DNA of 64,000 nucleotides from Nitrospirota bacterium (GTDB lineage: Bacteria > Nitrospirota > Thermodesulfovibrionia > Thermodesulfovibrionales > Magnetobacteriaceae): positions 27,175 through 91,174 of the forward strand of contig JADFYO010000008.1 in the NCBI GenBank assembly GCA_015233015.1. Reading direction: 5' to 3'. The position numbers and the translations under genes were made by a program. Positions 3,559-48,579 of the stretch are shown piece by piece. The notes beneath the pieces were generated by a model that saw only the letters and a program-made list of their open reading frames with translations, did no database searches and was not told the origin of the DNA. Every line of letters begins with the position of its first letter. Within the stretch, counting starts at the first letter, position 1.

Positions 3559-4560
3559 ATGATACTCTCAGGAAGCGCCGGGCATGTCGGAGAACTCGCG
3601 CTTGTCAGGTACATACGGGATGAGTTCTCTAAGGGTTTATTAAGAAATAACCTTTCGATAGGCATAGGGGATGATGCGGCCGTAGTGAGGGTTGGCGGCA
3701 GGAACCTGCTTATCAGTGCCGATACGATGTGCGAAGGGGTTCACTTCGACATGTCCTTTATAACGGCATATCAGGTAGGTTACAAGCTGGTATCTGTTAA
3801 CGTAAGCGATATATACGCGATGGGTGGAACGCCGGAATGGTTCTTACTGACCACATCGTTTCCCGCCGGCACTTCAGAAACATTTGCACAAGAGTTTTTA
3901 TCCGGCATTAATGACGCGCTAAACCACTATGGCGCAGCTCTTATCGGAGGCGACGTTACGTCCTCAAATTCAGGGATTGTGGTGACTGGCATAGTTCTCG
4001 GTTTTGCCGATACACCCATATCGAGAAAGGGTGCGCGCCCCGGTGATAAGATATATGTTACTGGGGCGCTGGGGGACTCTGCCTGCGGCCTTGAGCTGCT
4101 TAAAAAAATCATGGCCCCCGTTGCAGTTGAAAAGGACGATGGGCCAAATATGCCCCTGCCGTGGGAGATAATGAGGCCGCTCCTTCAGAGACACCTTATG
4201 CCCAAGGTTATCAGGCCGGTCTTCGGAGGTTGTGCTGTCAGCTCTATGATGGACATAAGCGACGGCCTTGCGCTCGATCTCAGGCGGCTTTGTGAGGAGA
4301 GCGGCGTCGGCGCTATGATTTATGAAAATAAGATCCCTATGTCTGGTCAAATGCTCCTCTCGGCGAAATTCTTAAACAAGGACCCGCTCAGGTTCAGTCT
4401 TTGCGGCGGTGAGGACTATGAGTACCTGTTTACCTCTTCAGCAGATATAGATACGGCGCACTATATCGGAGATGTAACAGACAGGGGGCTTTTCTTAATC
4501 GGCAAAGACGGCAAATCAATAGAGTTGATGGACTGCGGCTATGAGCATTTCAAAACTTAA
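3559..4560 (+). CDS. thiL: Thiamine-monophosphate kinase
   Basis: GIGDDAAVV, SVNVSDIYAMGGTPEWFL, GGDVTSS, MDISDGLALDL, CGGEDYEYLFT motifs. Confidence 0.93.
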   Translation: MILSGSAGHVGELALVRYIRDEFSKGLLRNNLSIGIGDDAAVVRVGGRNLLISADTMCEGVHFDMSFITAYQVGYKLVSVNVSDIYAMGGTPEWFLLTTSFPAGTSETFAQEFLSGINDALNHYGAALIGGDVTSSNSGIVVTGIVLGFADTPISRKGARPGDKIYVTGALGDSACGLELLKKIMAPVAVEKDDGPNMPLPWEIMRPLLQRHLMPKVIRPVFGGCAVSSMMDISDGLALDLRRLCEESGVGAMIYENKIPMSGQMLLSAKFLNKDPLRFSLCGGEDYEYLFTSSADIDTAHYIGDVTDRGLFLIGKDGKSIELMDCGYEHFKT

Positions 4561-5002: not shown

Positions 5003-6339
5003 GGCCATCCTTATCACCAACATTGTCAATAATTACGCTTGGCTGTCCAAAGAACCAGGCCGACTCGCAACGCCTCGAGCGGCTCTTTGCCTCAGAGGGG
5101 TTTTCATGTACTGAGGCGCCGGAAGACGCCGGAATTATACTCATAAACACATGCGGATTTATCGAAGCAGCCAGAGCCGAGTCGATAAACGAAATCCTTG
5201 AACTTGCGGCTTGTAAGACCAGCGGGAAAACGCTTCTCGTCTTTGGATGTCTGGCAGAGAGATATAAGGAAGAGCTGGTAAAAGAAATACCGGAGATCGA
5301 TGCCATCTTCGGCGTGGGACAAGAGCCGGCCATAGTTGAGTATTGCAGAAAAAACGCGAAGGCTGTCAGGACACCTAAGAGTGTCTGGACACCTAAGAGT
5401 GTCTGGACACCTGCAGCGCATACAGAGATACTCAGTCCGCGGCCTCTTCCCTACGCCTATCTGAAGATAGCCGATGGCTGCAACCGTGGCTGCCGCTTTT
5501 GCGCTATACCGTTAATCCGCGGGCGTTTTAAGAGCGCTGCCATTACCGGCATACTGGAAGAGGCCGTAATGCACCTTCAGGAAGGCAAGCGGGAGCTGAT
5601 ACTTGTTGCCCAGGACCTGGCATCTTTTGGCGTGGACACAGGGGAGAGCCTCGTTACGCTTCTTGACGCCCTCGCCTCTTTAGATGGGGATTTCTGGATA
5701 CGCCTTATGTACTTATATCCCACCGCGGTCAGCGACGCACTTATTGATTGTATTAAGAGGCACGATAAGGTAATTTTAAGATATCTCGATATTCCCATTC
5801 AGCACTCCGAGGACGGCATCCTAAGGGCGATGGGGCGGGCGGGGTCTCGCGGCGGTTATATCGACTTATTTGAAAGGATAAGGTCTCAACTGCCCGATGT
5901 GTGTCTCAGGACTACGCTGATGGCGGGATTCCCCGGTGAGAGCGCCAGGGATTTCAAGGCACTCCTGTCATTTGTCGAAGAGGTGAAATTTGACAGGTTG
6001 GGCGTCTTTGCCTATTCGGACGAACCTGGCACTGCTGCCTTTGGGATGACTAAGAAGGTCACTAAAAAGACCACGTTAAGGCGGGTAGAAGAGATAATGT
6101 TGCTGCAAGCGGAAATATCATACGAAAAAAACCGCGCGTTAGTCGGAAGACAATTCAGAGGTTTAATTGACGAGGTACAAGACGGCACTGCCCTTGCCAG
6201 ATTATACTGCCATGCCCCCGAAATTGACGGCTGTGTCGTTATCGAAAATATCCGAGGCGATTTTACCACGAATGATTTTATCGATATTCGGATAACAGAC
6301 GCAGAGGAGTATGACCTCAGAGGGGATATAATTTATTGA
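4999..6339 (+). CDS. rimO: Ribosomal protein S12 methylthiotransferase RimO
   Basis: LGCPKNQADSQ, radical SAM ADGCNRGCRFCAIPLIRG, LRTTLMAGFPGE, TRAM-like C-terminus. Confidence 0.94.
   Translation: MRPSLSPTLSIITLGCPKNQADSQRLERLFASEGFSCTEAPEDAGIILINTCGFIEAARAESINEILELAACKTSGKTLLVFGCLAERYKEELVKEIPEIDAIFGVGQEPAIVEYCRKNAKAVRTPKSVWTPKSVWTPAAHTEILSPRPLPYAYLKIADGCNRGCRFCAIPLIRGRFKSAAITGILEEAVMHLQEGKRELILVAQDLASFGVDTGESLVTLLDALASLDGDFWIRLMYLYPTAVSDALIDCIKRHDKVILRYLDIPIQHSEDGILRAMGRAGSRGGYIDLFERIRSQLPDVCLRTTLMAGFPGESARDFKALLSFVEEVKFDRLGVFAYSDEPGTAAFGMTKKVTKKTTLRRVEEIMLLQAEISYEKNRALVGRQFRGLIDEVQDGTALARLYCHAPEIDGCVVIENIRGDFTTNDFIDIRITDAEEYDLRGDIIY
5365..5412 (+). repeat. 18-bp tandem repeat inside rimO (about 2.7 copies of GTCWGGACACCTAAGAGT)
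   Basis: gtcaggacacctaagagt / gtctggacacctaagagt / gtctggacacct; encodes VRTPKS-VWTPKS-VWTP. Confidence 0.95.
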
Positions 6340-30348: not shown

Positions 30349-31572
30349 ATGAACGAGAAGGAATTCATAAGTCTAATTCGCCTGTGCGTAAAATGTGGCG
30401 GCTGCAAGACGCAATGCCCCACTTACTCGGTGTGCAAAGAGGAGTCGGAGACCGCCCGCGGCCGCATAAGGCTCTTACACGCACTTGTCGAGGGCAAGGT
30501 CAAACCGACCAAAAAATTCAACGAAAAACTCAGAAGCTGTGTCCTCTGCGGCTCGTGCGCAAATCACTGCCCGCTCAACATAGACCTAATGGAGATATTC
30601 TACCACGCCAGGACAATAATAAAAGACCATGACAACACATTGGCCGCTGCCGGTTTTTTGAGTAAGCTCGCGTTTAAGAACACGGATTTCACCATAAACC
30701 TGATTAAGCCATTTCAGAAAATGATTAATAACAGGCTTGCAAGAAAAAAACTAATGCCGGCGAATGTCCAATTCACTGAGAATCAGTTCAAGAAGACGGG
30801 CATATTTATGGTAAAAAATAAGATAGGCCGTGTGGCGGTATTTACGGGCTGTACGATAAAGCATATATATCCTGAGCTGATGTTCTCGGTGGCGAGGGTC
30901 TTCAACGCGCTGCGCTATGAGGTGGTATTTCCGACGTCGGAGGTATGCTGCGGGGTGCCGTTCAGGTCGCTTGGCCTGGAGTCGACGGCTGTGTCATATG
31001 CGGAGAAGAACTACGAGATCTTTAGTAAACTGAAGGTTGATGCCATTATATCGCTCTGCCCGACGTGTGTAGTCTCGCTGAAAAAGCACTATCCCGTATT
31101 AATAAATAAGGAGCTTGAAAATGTCTATGACATATCGGACTTCCTGCGTGGCAGGATAGACATGGACATGATTGACGACAACATCGGCCAGCGGCGTAAG
31201 ACGGTGAACCTGAAAGCGGTGTTTCATGAATCATGCCATCAGCGCAACGAACTCAAAAACGGCAGCCAGACAAGGGAACTGATACGCGCGCTGCGACGTG
31301 AGCAGCACGATGCTTCCAACCCCTTTGACATAGAGCTTCTTGAGCCGGACAAGCAGTCATGCTGCGGCTTCGGCGGGACATTCAGCGTGTTTTTTAACGA
31401 TATGTCAAATTACATACTTAATGAAACCGTAAAAGAGCTGGACAAGACAAAGGCCGAGGCAGTAATCACCACATGCCCCAACTGCATATTCCAGCTAAGC
31501 AAGGCAATTCAGGACAAGCCCATCTACCATCTGATAGAAATCATCGAAGAGGCCATAACCCCGCAGGTGTAA
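30349..31572 (+). CDS. (Fe-S)-binding protein, glycolate oxidase GlcF-like
   Basis: CVKCGGCKTQCPTY, CVLCGSCANHCPLNID, CCG motifs CCGVPFRS and CCGFGGTF, TTCPNCIFQL. Confidence 0.88.
   Translation: MNEKEFISLIRLCVKCGGCKTQCPTYSVCKEESETARGRIRLLHALVEGKVKPTKKFNEKLRSCVLCGSCANHCPLNIDLMEIFYHARTIIKDHDNTLAAAGFLSKLAFKNTDFTINLIKPFQKMINNRLARKKLMPANVQFTENQFKKTGIFMVKNKIGRVAVFTGCTIKHIYPELMFSVARVFNALRYEVVFPTSEVCCGVPFRSLGLESTAVSYAEKNYEIFSKLKVDAIISLCPTCVVSLKKHYPVLINKELENVYDISDFLRGRIDMDMIDDNIGQRRKTVNLKAVFHESCHQRNELKNGSQTRELIRALRREQHDASNPFDIELLEPDKQSCCGFGGTFSVFFNDMSNYILNETVKELDKTKAEAVITTCPNCIFQLSKAIQDKPIYHLIEIIEEAITPQV
31408..31548 (+). repeat. Copy 1 (intact, coding) of glcF 3'-end direct repeat
   Basis: aattacatacttaatgaaaccg...gatagaaatcatcgaa; about 92% identical by eye to 32565-32704. 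Confidence 0.93.
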
Positions 31573-31616
31573 GGTTTTACGTAATTACTGTGCAGCTCTT
31601 GTGATATAATATACTA

Positions 31617-32345
31617 ATGAGCAAGAACGGCGAACAGTCTGACATGGAAGGGCAAGCGTGGGAAGCCGTGCTGTCGTCGATTTGCCGATTGCAAGTCGTG
31701 CTGCCGGAAGCAGTGCTTGTTGGCGGGACAGCTTCGGCGATTTACGCTGAGCACCGTCTTTCGTTTGACCATGATCATGTTCTGCCCGATCTCAGGGAGC
31801 GCTTCGATGCTGTTTTATCTGAACTGGAAGCGGTTTCAGGTTGGGAGACGGCACGTGTCAAACGTCCTGTTTTAATCCTCGGCTCTCTGGATGGGGTTGA
31901 GACTGGTGTGCGTCAACTACGCCGAACAAAGCCTTTAGAAACCACGGTCATGCGAGTGGGCGGTCATGAATTGGTTTTGCCGGCATTGCCGGAGGTGCTG
32001 CGCATAAAGGCCTTTCTCTGCCTGCAGCGTAATGCCACGCGGGACTATCTCGATTTGGCCGCTTTGGCTGCACATATTGGGGTCGAAGCCGCCTGTGACG
32101 CTCTATGGAGCATGGATGAACTCTACCCGCAAAAGAGCGGAGGTGAGTGGGTTGTGCGTACTCAGCTGATACAGCAGCTTTCAGCGCCGCAACCATACGA
32201 CCTCGATGAAATAGACCTTGCCGAATATAAGGGGGTTCGTCCTCCATTTGATAGCTGGGGTTATGTTGCCGGGATGTGCGGCAAATTGTCCGATTGGCTG
32301 CTGAATGTTTGTGAGAAGGCGTTGCCTGAGGAGTTTGAAGAATGA
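31617..32345 (+). CDS. AbiEii/AbiGii-like nucleotidyltransferase family protein
   Basis: EAVLVGGTASAIYAEHRLSFDHDHVLPDLRERF...ETTVMRVGGHELVLPALPEVLRIKAFLCLQRNATRDYLDLAAL, GG..D.D NTase pattern. Confidence 0.72.
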   Translation: MSKNGEQSDMEGQAWEAVLSSICRLQVVLPEAVLVGGTASAIYAEHRLSFDHDHVLPDLRERFDAVLSELEAVSGWETARVKRPVLILGSLDGVETGVRQLRRTKPLETTVMRVGGHELVLPALPEVLRIKAFLCLQRNATRDYLDLAALAAHIGVEAACDALWSMDELYPQKSGGEWVVRTQLIQQLSAPQPYDLDEIDLAEYKGVRPPFDSWGYVAGMCGKLSDWLLNVCEKALPEEFEE

Positions 32346-32578
32346 AGCACCGCCACTTAACGCATGAGAAATTTACGATTGCGGCAATTGAGGACATTAT
32401 TGACAGAGGCCAGGTACCCGACTGGATTCCATTGATCAGAGCAATTCGGGCTGACCCGTACGGTGAGATTGCCTTGAAAACTGGTGCCCTGTGCGAGCGC
32501 CCCCTGTTCGGGTCATCTGTATTTCGTCGCGTACTCAACGCCGCGAGACAGTCGCGTCCGTTAAAACTACATACTTAA
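32342..32578 (+). CDS. Small protein translationally coupled to the AbiEii-like NTase; putative partner
   Basis: ATGA overlap with the upstream ORF; 78 aa; C-terminus runs into the glcF repeat copy. Confidence 0.6.
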   Translation: MKHRHLTHEKFTIAAIEDIIDRGQVPDWIPLIRAIRADPYGEIALKTGALCERPLFGSSVFRRVLNAARQSRPLKLHT

Positions 32579-32722
32579 CGAACCCGAAAAGGGCTTGATA
32601 AGACAAAGGCCGAGGCAGTAATCACCACATGCCCAAACTGAATATTCCAGCTAAGCAAGGCAATTCAGGACAAACCCATCTACCATCTGATAGAAATAAT
32701 CGAAAAAAGACTTGACAAATGA
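32565..32722 (+). pseudogene. Degenerate copy of glcF 3' end (copy 2 of direct repeat)
   Basis: Homologous to 31408-31548; 1-nt deletion near 32581-32590, and TGC>TGA stop in TTCPN*IFQLSKAIQDKPIYHLIEIIEKRLDK*. Confidence 0.92.
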
Positions 32723-32738
32723 ATATTAGTGTTATAAA
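32712..32738 (+). promoter_or_regulatory. Candidate sigma70 promoter for the ATPase module (TTGACA-N15-TATAAA)
   Basis: cTTGACAaatgaatattagtgtTATAAAct. Spacing 15 is slightly short. The -35 lies inside the glcF remnant. Confidence 0.55.
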
Positions 32739-32745
32739 CTAGTAA

Positions 32746-32820: not shown

Positions 32821-34065
32821 ATGGTTGACCACATTAACGACGAAGAAGGGCCATCATTCGTAATCGGCAATATCGCCAGAGGAATCGATATGTGGGACAG
32901 GGATGCTGAAATAGATGAAATTTGGAAAACCTTAAAAAATGACAATGTATTGCTCAAGGCATGTCGCAGGTTTGGTAAATCGAGCATTATGTTAAAGATG
33001 AAAGAAAATCCTCGTCATGATTTCATTTGCTTTATGTTCGATGCGGAAAGCACGAAAAGTCCTGAGGATTTCGTTGTTACCCTTCTTGATAAATTACGTG
33101 CCGAGAATGAATTAAATGGTGATGCAAACCTAAAGAAATTGTTAAAGAAAGCAATAAGGATTATAAAAAAATCATTTAACGCCATTGATCAGGTGGGTAT
33201 CTCAGAGTTTAGTTTGAAATTTAGAGATGCCATCTCTTCTGATTGGCGTAAAGTAGCAGTTGAACTTATTGATTATTTATCTGGTTTCAACAGAAAGATT
33301 TTGTTTATTATCGATGAACTTCCTCAGTTAATTCTAAATATGAAACAACACCACGATAATAACGTGGCGTGTGAGTTTCTTAACTGGTTTCGAGAGGTTC
33401 GACAATCACATAATTTATCGAATATTCGATGGCTTTTTGGTGGCTCAATTGGTATTGAACATGCAATAAAAAAGGTTGGTGCTCAAAACACCGTGATTAA
33501 TGACCTCTCTATAATTGTTTTAAAGCCATACAGCGATAAAATAGGCAGAGAATTTATCGCGGCATTATTAAAACAAGAGGGGAAGTTCAGAGAAATATCA
33601 TCAGGGATAATTGAAAAAATCATGAACACCGTCGGCTCACCGGTACCATATTTCCTTCAAATTCTCATAAAAGAAAGCTTGGATACAATGAACGCTGCGG
33701 GAGAGGCTACTCTGACTAATGAAATCATAGAAGATGCATATCATGAAAGCGTACTTGGTGTTGCAAAAAGGGCTTATTTTGAGCACTTTTATGATAGGCT
33801 TTCCGACTACTATGACAACAACGAGGTTGAAATAGTCAAGCAGATCATTGTCGAGACGGCTAGAAAAGAAGGTGGTATATCAAAAGCAGATCTCTCTGAT
33901 TTATATAAAACGATAGTGGGAGATAAAATCCCTGGGACACGTATTAACGATATTATGGCCGACCTTCAAAATGAATTTTATATTGTTTATGATCATACTA
34001 TCGGCACTTATCGTTTTTTAACGAATGTTCTAAGGGATTGGTGGTTGAGATATCACAGTGATTAG
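32821..34065 (+). CDS. AAA/STAND-type P-loop ATPase
   Basis: LLKACRRFGKSSIMLKM (atypical Walker A); RKILFIIDELPQLIL Walker B. Confidence 0.8.
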   Translation: MVDHINDEEGPSFVIGNIARGIDMWDRDAEIDEIWKTLKNDNVLLKACRRFGKSSIMLKMKENPRHDFICFMFDAESTKSPEDFVVTLLDKLRAENELNGDANLKKLLKKAIRIIKKSFNAIDQVGISEFSLKFRDAISSDWRKVAVELIDYLSGFNRKILFIIDELPQLILNMKQHHDNNVACEFLNWFREVRQSHNLSNIRWLFGGSIGIEHAIKKVGAQNTVINDLSIIVLKPYSDKIGREFIAALLKQEGKFREISSGIIEKIMNTVGSPVPYFLQILIKESLDTMNAAGEATLTNEIIEDAYHESVLGVAKRAYFEHFYDRLSDYYDNNEVEIVKQIIVETARKEGGISKADLSDLYKTIVGDKIPGTRINDIMADLQNEFYIVYDHTIGTYRFLTNVLRDWWLRYHSD

Positions 34066-34109
34066 AGGGGGTAACACTGAACCAATTATATGAATTCACG
34101 CCCGGACTT

Positions 34110-36305
34110 TTGACTTCAGATGTGCTCATTTCTATCTCTATGGGCAGGGATAGAGATATTTCGCGTATTGAGAACATTTTAAAGAACGCCTCAAGCGGCA
34201 GAAGTCTATCAAACTCCATACTTATCGGGCCTAAAGGAATCGGCAAGACTCATATTCTTAACATTATTTACCGTTCAATACGGGGCAATAGGAAAATAAA
34301 TGATAAGATTGCCGATCTTAAAGAGCGCTTTACGCCAGTCCTATTCTCTGAGGAAGAATATGTAAGCGGCGACATCACGAAGTTTGTTTTGACTATACTG
34401 CGTTATTTGCCTAACTCAAAAGATAATAAGCCTATTTCTATTCCGAAGGAATTTATCAATCTAACCCGAATAACAGAAAAAGAAAGGGCAGCGGCAGTTT
34501 CATTTCTAAAGACATTCAAGGAAAAGACGGGGAAAATCTTGCTCTTGTTAATAGACAACTTTAACGACATAATCGAAAAATTCACGAGAGAAGACCAATC
34601 CGCGCTGAGAGACGTACTGATGACGACAGACAGCGTATTAATAATTGGGGCGGCGCCGACACTCTTCGATGGCATAATCAATTACGACAAACCTTTTTAT
34701 AACTTTTTTGAAGTTATCAGGCTGCGTGATTTCTCATATAAAGAGACGACTGAACTGTTATATCGATTCGCGGCGATTGAAGGAAATGATGAGCTAATAA
34801 AAAAACTTGAAAACTCCAAATCTAAAATAGAGGCGATTCACAGACTCACCGGCGGCAACCCGCGTTTAATCCAGACACTTTTTAATATCGTCGTCAAAGA
34901 GGATGCGGCCTCTGTTGAGGATATGTTGATAAAACTTCTTGACAACCTTTCGTCATATTTTAGAGAACGAATGCGCGACCTTCCCAATCAACAAATGGAA
35001 ATCATAGATGTTATGGCGAGGGCGGAGACGCTTTTAACGCCCACAGAAATAGCCGCTGCGGCTCATTTACCCGTCAATACGGTAAACTCACAGCTTACGA
35101 GGCTGGAAAAAAGCGGCTATGTAAAAAATGTGACGCCAAAAAGAAAAAGAACTGTATTTTACGATATAAATGAAAGGCTGTTCAGCCTATGGCGTCAAAT
35201 GAGAGTAGATGCCGGAAGAAAACGACTGAGTTTAATCGTCAGGTTCTATGAAATATGGTTTTCTAAGGAAGAACTTCAATTGCATCTTGATAAAATATTA
35301 AAAGAGATCACAGAAAAATGCGCCGATGAGTGTCAATTGAGTAAGTGTATGGACAACCTCTACTATATTAAAGAAGCAATCCCTGAATTTAAAGGTAAAG
35401 GGGAAGCCTTGATAGCTTATCAAAAGGGAAACTATAAAGCAACTATTGTAATTTTAAAAAAACATTTAATGAAGAATCCTAATGACTATGAAGCGTTGTT
35501 AAATCTTGGTGCTGTATATTTAATGGAAGGACAACCTGATAAGGCGATAGCGGCATATAACAAGGCATTAGAGATTAATCCTAATGACTATGAAGCGTCG
35601 TCAAATCTTGGTGCTTTATATTCAAGCACAGGAGAACATGACAAAGCGATAGAGGCATGTAACAAGGCATTAGAAATTAATTCTAAATACGATGGTGCAT
35701 GGTATAATCTTGGTAATGCATATTCAGCCACAGGACGACCCCACAAGGCGATAGCGGCATATATCAAGGCATTAGAATTTGATCCTGAAAACTATAGGAC
35801 GTTGAATAATCTTGGGGTTATTTATCTTATTATTGGTCAACATAAAAAAGGATTTAACGCATTACTTAGTTCTATTAAGATTCAACCAAATGAAAAACTC
35901 CCATTAAATGGTATGTTTTATTTGTTTTATATAACATTTGTTCATGAGGCAATCAAAGGAAACGCTGCAAATGCTCTATATTCTTTACAAAAGATGATAG
36001 AAGTCTCATACGCTACCATATTAAAAAAAGAAATGCAAGATTTCTTTGTAAATTCGTTTAAAGAAATCGCAAAAAGCAAAAAATACAATTTCTTAAGACA
36101 GGCTTTAGACGAGGTAAAGAAGACCGGTGAAGATGAATTGTATGAATTATTACGGCCATTCGATATTATTGTAAAATATTACGAGACTAAGGACGAGAAC
36201 GTAATCGAACGGCTTAAGCCGGAGGTGCGTCTTATTGTCGATGAGATAATGAAAGAAATCGAAGGGGCGGCAGACACCGAATCATCACCAATCGAATCAT
36301 CCTGA
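34110..36305 (+). CDS. STAND-like ATPase with winged helix and TPR repeats
   Basis: LIGPKGIGKTHILNIIY Walker A; ILLLIDNFNDII Walker B; TPTEIAAAAHLPVNTVNSQLTRLEKSGYVKN wHTH; TPRs with NPNDYEALLNLGAVYLMEGQPDKAIAAYNKALEI. Confidence 0.85.
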   Translation: MTSDVLISISMGRDRDISRIENILKNASSGRSLSNSILIGPKGIGKTHILNIIYRSIRGNRKINDKIADLKERFTPVLFSEEEYVSGDITKFVLTILRYLPNSKDNKPISIPKEFINLTRITEKERAAAVSFLKTFKEKTGKILLLLIDNFNDIIEKFTREDQSALRDVLMTTDSVLIIGAAPTLFDGIINYDKPFYNFFEVIRLRDFSYKETTELLYRFAAIEGNDELIKKLENSKSKIEAIHRLTGGNPRLIQTLFNIVVKEDAASVEDMLIKLLDNLSSYFRERMRDLPNQQMEIIDVMARAETLLTPTEIAAAAHLPVNTVNSQLTRLEKSGYVKNVTPKRKRTVFYDINERLFSLWRQMRVDAGRKRLSLIVRFYEIWFSKEELQLHLDKILKEITEKCADECQLSKCMDNLYYIKEAIPEFKGKGEALIAYQKGNYKATIVILKKHLMKNPNDYEALLNLGAVYLMEGQPDKAIAAYNKALEINPNDYEASSNLGALYSSTGEHDKAIEACNKALEINSKYDGAWYNLGNAYSATGRPHKAIAAYIKALEFDPENYRTLNNLGVIYLIIGQHKKGFNALLSSIKIQPNEKLPLNGMFYLFYITFVHEAIKGNAANALYSLQKMIEVSYATILKKEMQDFFVNSFKEIAKSKKYNFLRQALDEVKKTGEDELYELLRPFDIIVKYYETKDENVIERLKPEVRLIVDEIMKEIEGAADTESSPIESS

Positions 36306-45087: not shown

Positions 45088-48000
45088 GTGGATTTTTTAT
45101 TAAGGGGAGGGGTTATGCTTAATAGTAAAAAGTTGTTGGGAATAGTAAAAATACTTACATTGGTTATTGCATTGGCGCTCTCATACACTAGTGTCTTGGC
45201 TGCTAATGCTGGCAATATCTACACTGTTGCGGGTAACGGCTCCCAATCCTATGCTGGCGACGGAGGCCTTGCAACGAGCGCGACCCTTAACGATCCTTCC
45301 GGCATAGCAGTCGATAGCATCGGCAATCTTTACATAGCCGATCAATCAAACCACTGTATCCGCGTTGTAGCAAAGGTTTCAGGAACATACTTGGGTATGG
45401 CGATGACGGCGGGTAACATCTACACCATTGCGGGTAACGGCAGCTGGGGTTATTCGGGCGATGGTGGGGCTGCAACGAGCGCGACCCTTCGCAGTCCTTC
45501 CGGCGTAGCACTAGATAGCATCGGCAACCTGTACATTGCCGATTTCGGTAACAACAGAATCCGTGTGGTAGCAAATGTTACAGGTACATATTTAGGTGTA
45601 GCGATGACGGCGGGTAACATCTACACCGTTGCGGGTAACGGCAACCAATCCTATGCCGGCGACGGAGGCCTTGCATCCAGCGCATCCCTTTACTTACCTT
45701 ACTGTGTAGCGGTAGATAGCGTTGGCAACCTGTACATTGCGGACACATAAAATGTCAGAATCCGCGTGGTAGCAAATGTTACGGGTACATATTTAGGGGT
45801 AGCGATGACGGCGGGTAACATCTACACCGTTGCGGGTAGCGGCAACTGGGGCTATTCGGGCGATGGAGACCTTGCAACCAGCGCGTCCCTTTACTATCCT
45901 TACTGTATAGCGGTAGATAGCGTCGGCAACCTGTACATATCAGACCAGGATAACCACCGAATCCGCATTGTAGCAAATATTGGGGGTACATTCTTAGGCA
46001 TACCGGTGACGGCGGGTAACATCTATACCGTTGCGGGTAACGGCAACTGGGGCTATTCAGGCGACGGCGACCTTGCAACCAGCGCGACCCTTCATGATAC
46101 TTACGGCGTAGCGTTAGATAGCACTGGCAACCTGTACATAGCAGACATATACAACCGCAGAGTCCGCGTGGTAGCAAATGTTGAGGGTACCTATTTAGGT
46201 GTAGCGATGACGGCGGGTAACATCTACACCATTGCGGGTAACGGCACCTCTGGCTATTCAGGCGATGGTGGGGCTGCAACCAGCGCGACCCTTGATCCTG
46301 TCGGCCTAACGGTAGATAGCGCGGGCAGCCTGTACATAGCAGGCGATAATGTAATCCGCAAAGTTAATGCTTTTGCAACGTTCACAGTAACACCATGGGC
46401 TGGAGCTAACATGTACATAAACCCGGAAACAGCTCAGACTGTTTCTTATGGCAATACGGCACAATTCACTGTAACGCCATCCTACGGCTACACAGCCTCA
46501 GTAAGCGGATGCGGCGGAAGTTTATCCGGCAACATATACACTACTGGCGCTATTACCAGTGATTGCACGGTAACGGCAACATCTGTTGCAAATACCTACA
46601 GCGTGACGCCATCAGGGGGGACGAACGGTACAATAAGCCCGTCAACGGTTCAGACTGTTTCTTTCCATAATAAAACGACCTTCACGATAACGCCGAATTC
46701 AGGATACACAGCCTCAGTAAGCGGATGCAGCGGAAGTTTATCCGGTAACACATACACTACAGGCTCTATTAACGCTAATTGTACGGTAAGGGCAACGTTC
46801 TCACCAACCATTTATAAAGTAACGCCGTCGGCGGGCGCTAACGGGACAATAAGCCCGGCGACGGCGGTGTCTGTTTATTATAACAACACGTATCCATTCA
46901 CAGTAACGCCAAACACGGGATACACAGCCTCGGTAGGTGGGACATGTGGTGGGCATTTATATGGAAATTATTACATAACAAACGCAATCACTGACAATTG
47001 TACGGTAGTTGCATCATTCACTGCTAACACCGCTAACACCTACACAGTAACGCCGTCGGCAGGCGCAAACGGTACGATAAGCCCAACAACAGCGCAGAAT
47101 GTTTCTTCTGGTAGTATGACGACTTTCACGGTAACGCCGAATACAGGATATTCTGCCTCGGTAGGCGGCACATGCGGCGGCTCTTTGGTTGGCAGCACCT
47201 ATACAACAAACGCAGTTACCGGCAATTGTACTGTAACGGCAACGTTCACGCCAATCAATTATACGGTAACGCCGTCGGCAGGCGCGAATGGGACAATAAG
47301 CCCAACAACAGCGCAGAGTGTTGCTTATGGTAATACAACGACTTTCACAGTAACGCCAAAATCAGGATATACTGCCACGGTAGGCGGTACCTGCGGCGGT
47401 AATTTATCTGGCAATAATTACACAACAAACGCAGTTACCGGTAATTGTACGGTATCGGCAACATTCGCACCAACCGTTTATTATACGGTAACGCCGTCAG
47501 CGGGAGCGAATGGAACAATAAGCCCGTCAGCGGCTGTGACTGTTGCTTCCGGGTCAACAAAGCAGTTTACTCTGCGTGCACAGGCAGGATATGCATTAGG
47601 GTCAGTCACTGGTTGCAACGGCAGTTTGTCCGGCTCGATTTACACAACCGGAGCTATTACCTCTAACTGTGCGGTAACTGCAACATTTACAAAGAATACC
47701 TTTACGGTAACACCATCAGCAGGTGCCGGAGGGGCGATTAGCCCGTCAGCCGCCGTAACTGTTACTTCCGGCACTACAAAGGCATTTGCGATAAATCCTC
47801 GCACAGGATATACTATCGCTTCGGTAACTGGATGTAACGGTTCACTCTCTGGCACCACATACACAACCGGCGCTATTACCGCTGACTGTACGGTAGCGGC
47901 GACATTTACTACACCAACGAAATATACGGTAACACCGTCGGCAGGTACCGGAGGAACGATAAGCCCATCGGCCGCTGTAACGGTTACGTCCGGGTCAACA

Positions 48001-48579
48001 AAGGCTTTTACGATAAGTCCGCATACAGGATATACTATCGCTTCGGTAACTGGATGTAACGGTTCACTCTCTGGCACCATCTACACAACCGGTGCTATTA
48101 CGGCTGACTGTACGGTAGCGGCGACATATACTACACCAACGAAATATACGGTAACGCCAACAGCGGGCACAGGAGGAACGATAAGCCCATCAGCCGCTGT
48201 GAATGTTACTTCCGGGTCGACACAGGCGTTTACGGTACATGCACAATCAGGATATGCTATCGCCTCGGTAACGGGATGTAACGGTTCTTTGTCCGGTACG
48301 ACATACACAACAGGTGCTATTACCTCTAGCTGCACAGTAACGGCAACATTTACTACAAACACCTTTACGGTAACGCCATCTGCAGGCGACGGAGGGGCAA
48401 TAAGCCCATCGACCCCTGTAACTGTTACTTCCGGGTCAACAAGGGTGTTTACGGTAAATCCCCGAACAGGATATACTATCGCTTCAGTAACTGGATGTAA
48501 CGGTTCACTGTCTGGAAAAACATACACAACGGGTGCTATTACCGCTGACTGTACGGTAGCGGCAACGTTTACAAAATAG
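45088..48579 (+). pseudogene. Secreted NHL-repeat/B-repeat protein interrupted by an in-frame TAA at 45748 (ORF pieces 45088-45750 and 45766-48579)
   Basis: Signal peptide; NHL units AGNIYTVAGNG..GYSGDGG.ATSA.L..P.G.A.DS.GNLYIAD; then about 10 VTPSAGANGTISP...GCNGSLSGTTYTTGAIT units. Both pieces are in the same frame. Confidence 0.85.
46383..48579 (+). repeat. Tandem degenerate coding repeats of about 200 bp (roughly 70 aa B-repeat-like units)
   Basis: Recurring gtaacgccgtcggcaggcgc...acaataagccc...tgtaacggttc...tacacaac; the most 3' units are nearly identical. Confidence 0.85.

Follow-up and report, generated by a model that had tools for sequence, protein, structure and literature searches.

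A toxin-antitoxin-like AbiEii/MenT-type module has probably inserted behind a glcF-like gene of Candidatus Magnetominusculus with long duplication of its target

How does a small two-gene cassette come to lie between two copies of the 3′ end of a host gene? The question is raised by a locus in the window, the whole stretch of 64,000 nucleotides analysed here (genome G000; genus Candidatus Magnetominusculus, Nitrospirota), in which all features discussed below lie on the + strand. The host gene is an intact glcF-like gene of 407 aa (30349..31571) with a 4Fe-4S and two CCG domains, which is GlcF-like but at 135.8 bits scores under the NCBIfam GlcF cut-off of 333. Its 3′ end forms copy 1 of a direct repeat (31407..31548), which returns at 32564..32704 as copy 2, a decayed duplicate of glcF codons about 359–403. 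The two copies align over 141 bases at 92.9% identity, a single 1-nt gap being needed, and a change of AACTGCATA into AACTGAATA (TGC>TGA) has given copy 2 a stop codon. Local BLAST of flank against flank returns the pair with E ~1e-54, and the repeat is therefore not a product of chance. The original target probably extends to about 31590, on the grounds that some 17 bp past the glcF stop still resemble the cassette-free site of a relative (G006, see below).

Between the copies lie an AbiEii/MenT-type nucleotidyltransferase (NTase) gene of 242 aa with conserved active-site residues (31617..32345) and a gene for an antitoxin-like partner of 78 aa (32342..32578), coupled to the first by an ATGA overlap and taking its final codons and stop from copy 2. 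The alignment and the open reading frames thus confirm what an earlier sequence-only reading had reported, namely the repeat (put at ~92%, with the 1-nt deletion and TGC>TGA), the NTase with its 78-aa coupled partner, and the partner stop inside copy 2. At the left edge of the cassette lies a conserved extended −10-like promoter, TTGTGATATAAT (31599..31610), which is common to the cassette at unrelated loci. No further gene-like reading frame and no recombinase gene was found between the glcF copies, and profile searches with the NTase/partner cargo gave no restriction–modification (R-M) match. Beyond copy 2 follows an ATPase_2-type gene (32821..34065), the original downstream neighbor of glcF, which it directly follows in G006, preceded by its promoter (TTGACA, 17 bp, TAAACT; 32712..32740) that is conserved in G006 and G007. 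Copy 2 had also been credited with a terminus of its own, IIEKRLDK*. Such a reading is indeed present, its stop ending at 32722, but it is not a glcF terminus: the bases AAAAAAGACTTGACA find their match, in G006 and G007, in the intergenic sequence and −35 region ahead of the ATPase gene. EKRLDK* was accordingly rejected as an alternative glcF C-terminus, the sequence being that of the ATPase promoter with its conserved −35 region; copy 2 is without the last glcF codons, a deletion fusing it to the conserved AAAAAA..CTTGACA of this promoter. The genus-typical glcF end, EEAITPQ(V/A), is found at the terminus of copy 1, and the C-terminus of the window gene is the same in G004, G006 and G007. 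Two tandem ATPase_2-type genes, the second with TPRs (together 32821-36305), are present downstream of glcF in G000, G007 and, in part, G006; between species, the ATPase DNA is just 68–69% identical, whereas the upstream region reaches 84%.

Genomes of the same genus reveal the site in other states. In G006 a single glcF end is followed directly by the same ATPase gene, without cassette, making this the empty site. G007, with a contig that corresponds to Candidatus Magnetominusculus xianensis HCH-1, does carry the cassette: glcF is followed in turn by NTase, partner, a glcF remnant that is shorter and has decayed further, and the ATPase gene. G001, G003, G004 and G005 have a single glcF end as well, with downstream sequence that does not match the ATPase gene. 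The sequence after glcF varies among these four congeners (loci L018, L017, L015 and L019), and insertions may therefore favor this spot. Copy 2 of the window resembles the window's own copy 1 (92.9%) more than it does the sequences of other genomes (at most 87.2%), and the G007 remnant likewise has its closest counterpart in the G007 copy 1, few sites being informative in either comparison. Given this affinity within one genome and the native end retained by copy 1, the duplication of the target was local, and the proposal that copy 2 had been imported with a foreign glcF end was rejected. The nearness of the copies within each genome can mean that the duplication is young relative to the species split, or that gene conversion has acted between the copies. 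A tree built from the 2.8 kb upstream places the cassette-free genomes G003 and G005 inside the clade of G000 and G007, which calls for loss of the cassette or for its exchange between lineages.

The same scar occurs at other genes. About 50 family loci were scanned for direct repeats across the cassette, the names gspB, GST, TTT receptor, anmK and ABC transporter used here being readings of translations and not profile matches. In L073 (Natronospirales), an intact gspB-like gene is followed by the HTH/partner gene, the NTase gene, a 134-bp repeat of the gspB 3′ end that takes in the stop (82% identity) and a GST-like gene, with no recombinase between the gspB copies. Genome G1610, from the same order, represents a second empty site, in which the GST gene comes right after gspB without cassette, and the bases after copy 2 in L073 align with its gspB–GST intergenic region. 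The gspB copy 2 is again nearest to copy 1 of its own genome (81.7% versus at most 76.3%). In L047 (a Syntrophobacteraceae MAG), the 3′ end of a serine recombinase gene is repeated (259 bp at 91%) and copy 2 starts at the stop of the partner, a case that is weaker because the recombinase is multicopy in the genome. Full and partial copies of this gene are scattered through the L047 genome (G403), and the sequence downstream of copy 2 resembles that of another partial copy. In L065, from a Betaproteobacteria MAG, the repeat (99 bp at 86%) covers the final 33 codons of a TTT-receptor-like gene together with its stop and encloses the cassette plus one extra gene; this case too is weaker, since paralogues of TTT-receptor-like genes are common. 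All four bracketing repeats are gene 3′ ends, with lengths of about 99 to 259 bp, and in three (L073, L047 and L065) homology between the copies stops at, or a few bases from, the stop codon, while at glcF the ~17 bp past the stop appear retained. At most of the ~50 loci a flanking duplication is absent; it is therefore not an obligatory mark and may have decayed or never formed. A 66-bp flanking repeat at L061 was not counted, being a dispersed palindromic element, and flanking repeats at L137 were set aside as dispersed intergenic repeats. In L062, an 86-bp tRNA-end-like repeat (3644-3729 and 5546-5631) encloses other acquired genes immediately upstream of a cassette relative.

Chance expectation was estimated by applying the same repeat search to 6,993 intervals of one kilobase each from these loci. 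In this control, which is modest and silent on other acquired genes, bracketing repeats occurred in about 0.27% of the non-cassette intervals (19 of ~6,990). The expectation for 50 cassettes is then ~0.14, and found, beyond the discovery locus, were L047 and L073 (within 600 bp) plus L065. Four background regions that we inspected proved to be a repeat-rich reading frame, paralogues, a dispersed repeat and a tRNA-like duplication. The window itself contains, at 46386-48575, a long reading frame made up of ~220-bp internal repeats that are 65–74% alike.

The cassette has been transferred horizontally and has spread across phyla. NTases that are 72–83% identical in amino acid sequence to that of the window occur across phyla at unrelated sites: within Nitrospirota adjoining an anmK-like gene (G004) and an ABC transporter gene (G010), and beyond in Acetobacteraceae MAGs, Ca. 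Magnetaquicoccus and one Syntrophobacteraceae MAG, where single taxon assignments could suffer from MAG binning errors. The partner stands beside the NTase in nearly all of these relatives. In the wider family its gene can stand on either side of the NTase gene, proteobacterial relatives carry it as a fusion with an Xre-type HTH at the N-terminus, and on a Pseudonocardia plasmid a gene for an HTH protein comes next after the NTase gene; on account of this fusion and this neighbor, the partner is read as a putative antitoxin or regulator. No NTase relatives were found in the viral contigs and phage records searched, and the repeat-bracketed arrangement occurs in none of the plasmid records inspected. 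On plasmids of Acidiphilium and Deferribacter (L131 and L134), NTase relatives lie a few kilobases from CRISPR-associated genes.

The window NTase scores 17.2 bits against Pfam AbiEii (PF08843; cut-off 22.5); of 31 family members, 22 hit this profile at E<=0.01, the best of them at 1.2e-7. The residues at the MenT motifs (G36-G37, S49, D51, D53, K131, R142, D143 and D146) are invariant or nearly so, G36, S49, D51, K131, R142, D143 and D146 being invariant in 31 sequences and D53 being kept in at least 90%. A profile search of the NTase sequence against the PDB found no relative; its predicted structure (pLDDT 90.7) has H. pylori 4ok0 and MenT1/MenAT1 (8an5) as nearest neighbors. MenT1 extends the 3′ ends of tRNAs by added nucleotides and is kept in check by its 68-aa partner MenA1 (PMC10435456). 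The partner encoded in the window has no match in Pfam, NCBIfam or PADLOC and does not qualify as an AbiEi/COG5340-type antitoxin; its model comprises four short helices of modest confidence and gave no match in a structural search. The NTase may be a tRNA-modifying toxin that the partner restrains.

We consider it likely that a mobile AbiEii/MenT-like, toxin-antitoxin-like module inserted behind glcF with a long target duplication. In the course of such an event, the horizontally transferred NTase/partner module would land directly behind glcF and about 140–180 bp of the target would be duplicated upon insertion. The intact glcF would then flank the cassette on one side, and on the other a copy of its tail, no longer functional, would remain attached to the gene originally downstream. 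Thanks to the duplication the target gene would come to no harm, and the module would persist afterwards because it is addictive or protective. An insertion that duplicates the gene end in which it lands was already part of the sequence-only reading, as was the advice to look for an empty site in a relative and for the same pair beside duplicated 3′ ends of other genes. These points are supported: G006 has the single glcF end followed by the same ATPase gene, and like layouts are found at gspB (L073), at the serine recombinase gene (L047) and, less cleanly, at the TTT-receptor-like gene (L065). As to how the long duplication might arise, we infer repair- or replication-associated illegitimate joining and not a dedicated enzyme. 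It seems rather doubtful that the module commands a dedicated recombinase-free route, landing at host stop codons and duplicating the preceding 100–260 bp as an autonomous mobile element.

Among the rivals to an insertion with target duplication, a Campbell-type single crossover fares best, though we hold it to be unlikely. Here a circle carrying a glcF 3′ fragment and the cassette recombines into chromosomal glcF, yielding the intact gene, the cassette and a truncated repeat; the predicted topology is identical to that observed, and the same cassette moving at glcF between Magnetominusculus lineages would be accounted for. A donor fragment does not fit with copy 2 being nearest to its own copy 1, at glcF as at gspB, nor does a circle with the NTase being in no phage record and the arrangement in none of the plasmid records inspected. 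Moreover, the circle must first capture a different gene end each time (glcF, gspB, recombinase), so that an initial insertion with duplication is still needed. A genomic island moved by an integrase, with gene 3′ ends serving as attachment sites and being regenerated on insertion, is very improbable, even if such ends are typical attachment sites and the cassette relative in L062 adjoins a tRNA-like duplication. No recombinase lies between the repeats at glcF or gspB, where just two genes are found, and the target genes differ and share no core, with repeats of ~99 to 259 bp; the earlier comparison with genomic islands therefore holds loosely for the landing at a 3′ end but not for the rest, there being no integrase, no tRNA target at the glcF site, a cargo of ~1 kb, and varied targets and repeat lengths. 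Least probable of all is that the glcF end had long ago undergone a simple tandem duplication and the cassette later fell into it by chance, an alternative raised at the outset that is in keeping with there being two copies only, the second partly decayed, but that is contradicted by the absence of a second copy without cassette from all relatives examined, and that would make the same arrangement around cassette relatives at other genes a coincidence.

The insertion with target duplication that we favor is closest to what has been described for R-M gene complexes, which insert with long, variable target duplications on the order of 100 bp according to the summaries of Nobusato et al. 2000 given in PMC3874152, PMC1643837 and PMC3031569. 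Common to both are an addictive two-gene module without transposase of its own, long and variable direct host repeats of local origin, and an empty site in a related genome. The cargo here is, in contrast, an AbiEii-type NTase with a small partner, and all four repeats are gene 3′ ends, three of them ending at or near the stop codon; the event resembles an R-M insertion but the cargo is not R-M, and we therefore regard it as a variant of R-M-type insertion and not as a member. With MenAT and AbiE the module shares the NTase fold, the conserved motif residues, a coupled two-gene operon and a very small partner (68 aa in MenA1), and it differs by the weak Pfam score of the window NTase and by a partner that matches no known antitoxin family, can stand up- or downstream and may be fused to an Xre HTH. 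Islands that target 3′ ends likewise land at a gene 3′ end, keep the gene intact and have the duplicated end on the far side, but the present case has no integrase, no common attachment core and a cargo of ~1 kb. A text search of the openly accessible literature that paired AbiEii with target site duplication returned no paper. The case bears on how small toxin-antitoxin or abortive-infection modules spread without a transposase, and offers sequence-level insertion scars at gene 3′ ends, with matched empty sites at two of the sites. Its signature, a module followed by a truncated copy of the tail of the preceding gene, is searchable in any genome, and the findings suggest that long target duplication is possibly a wider entry route for addictive modules.
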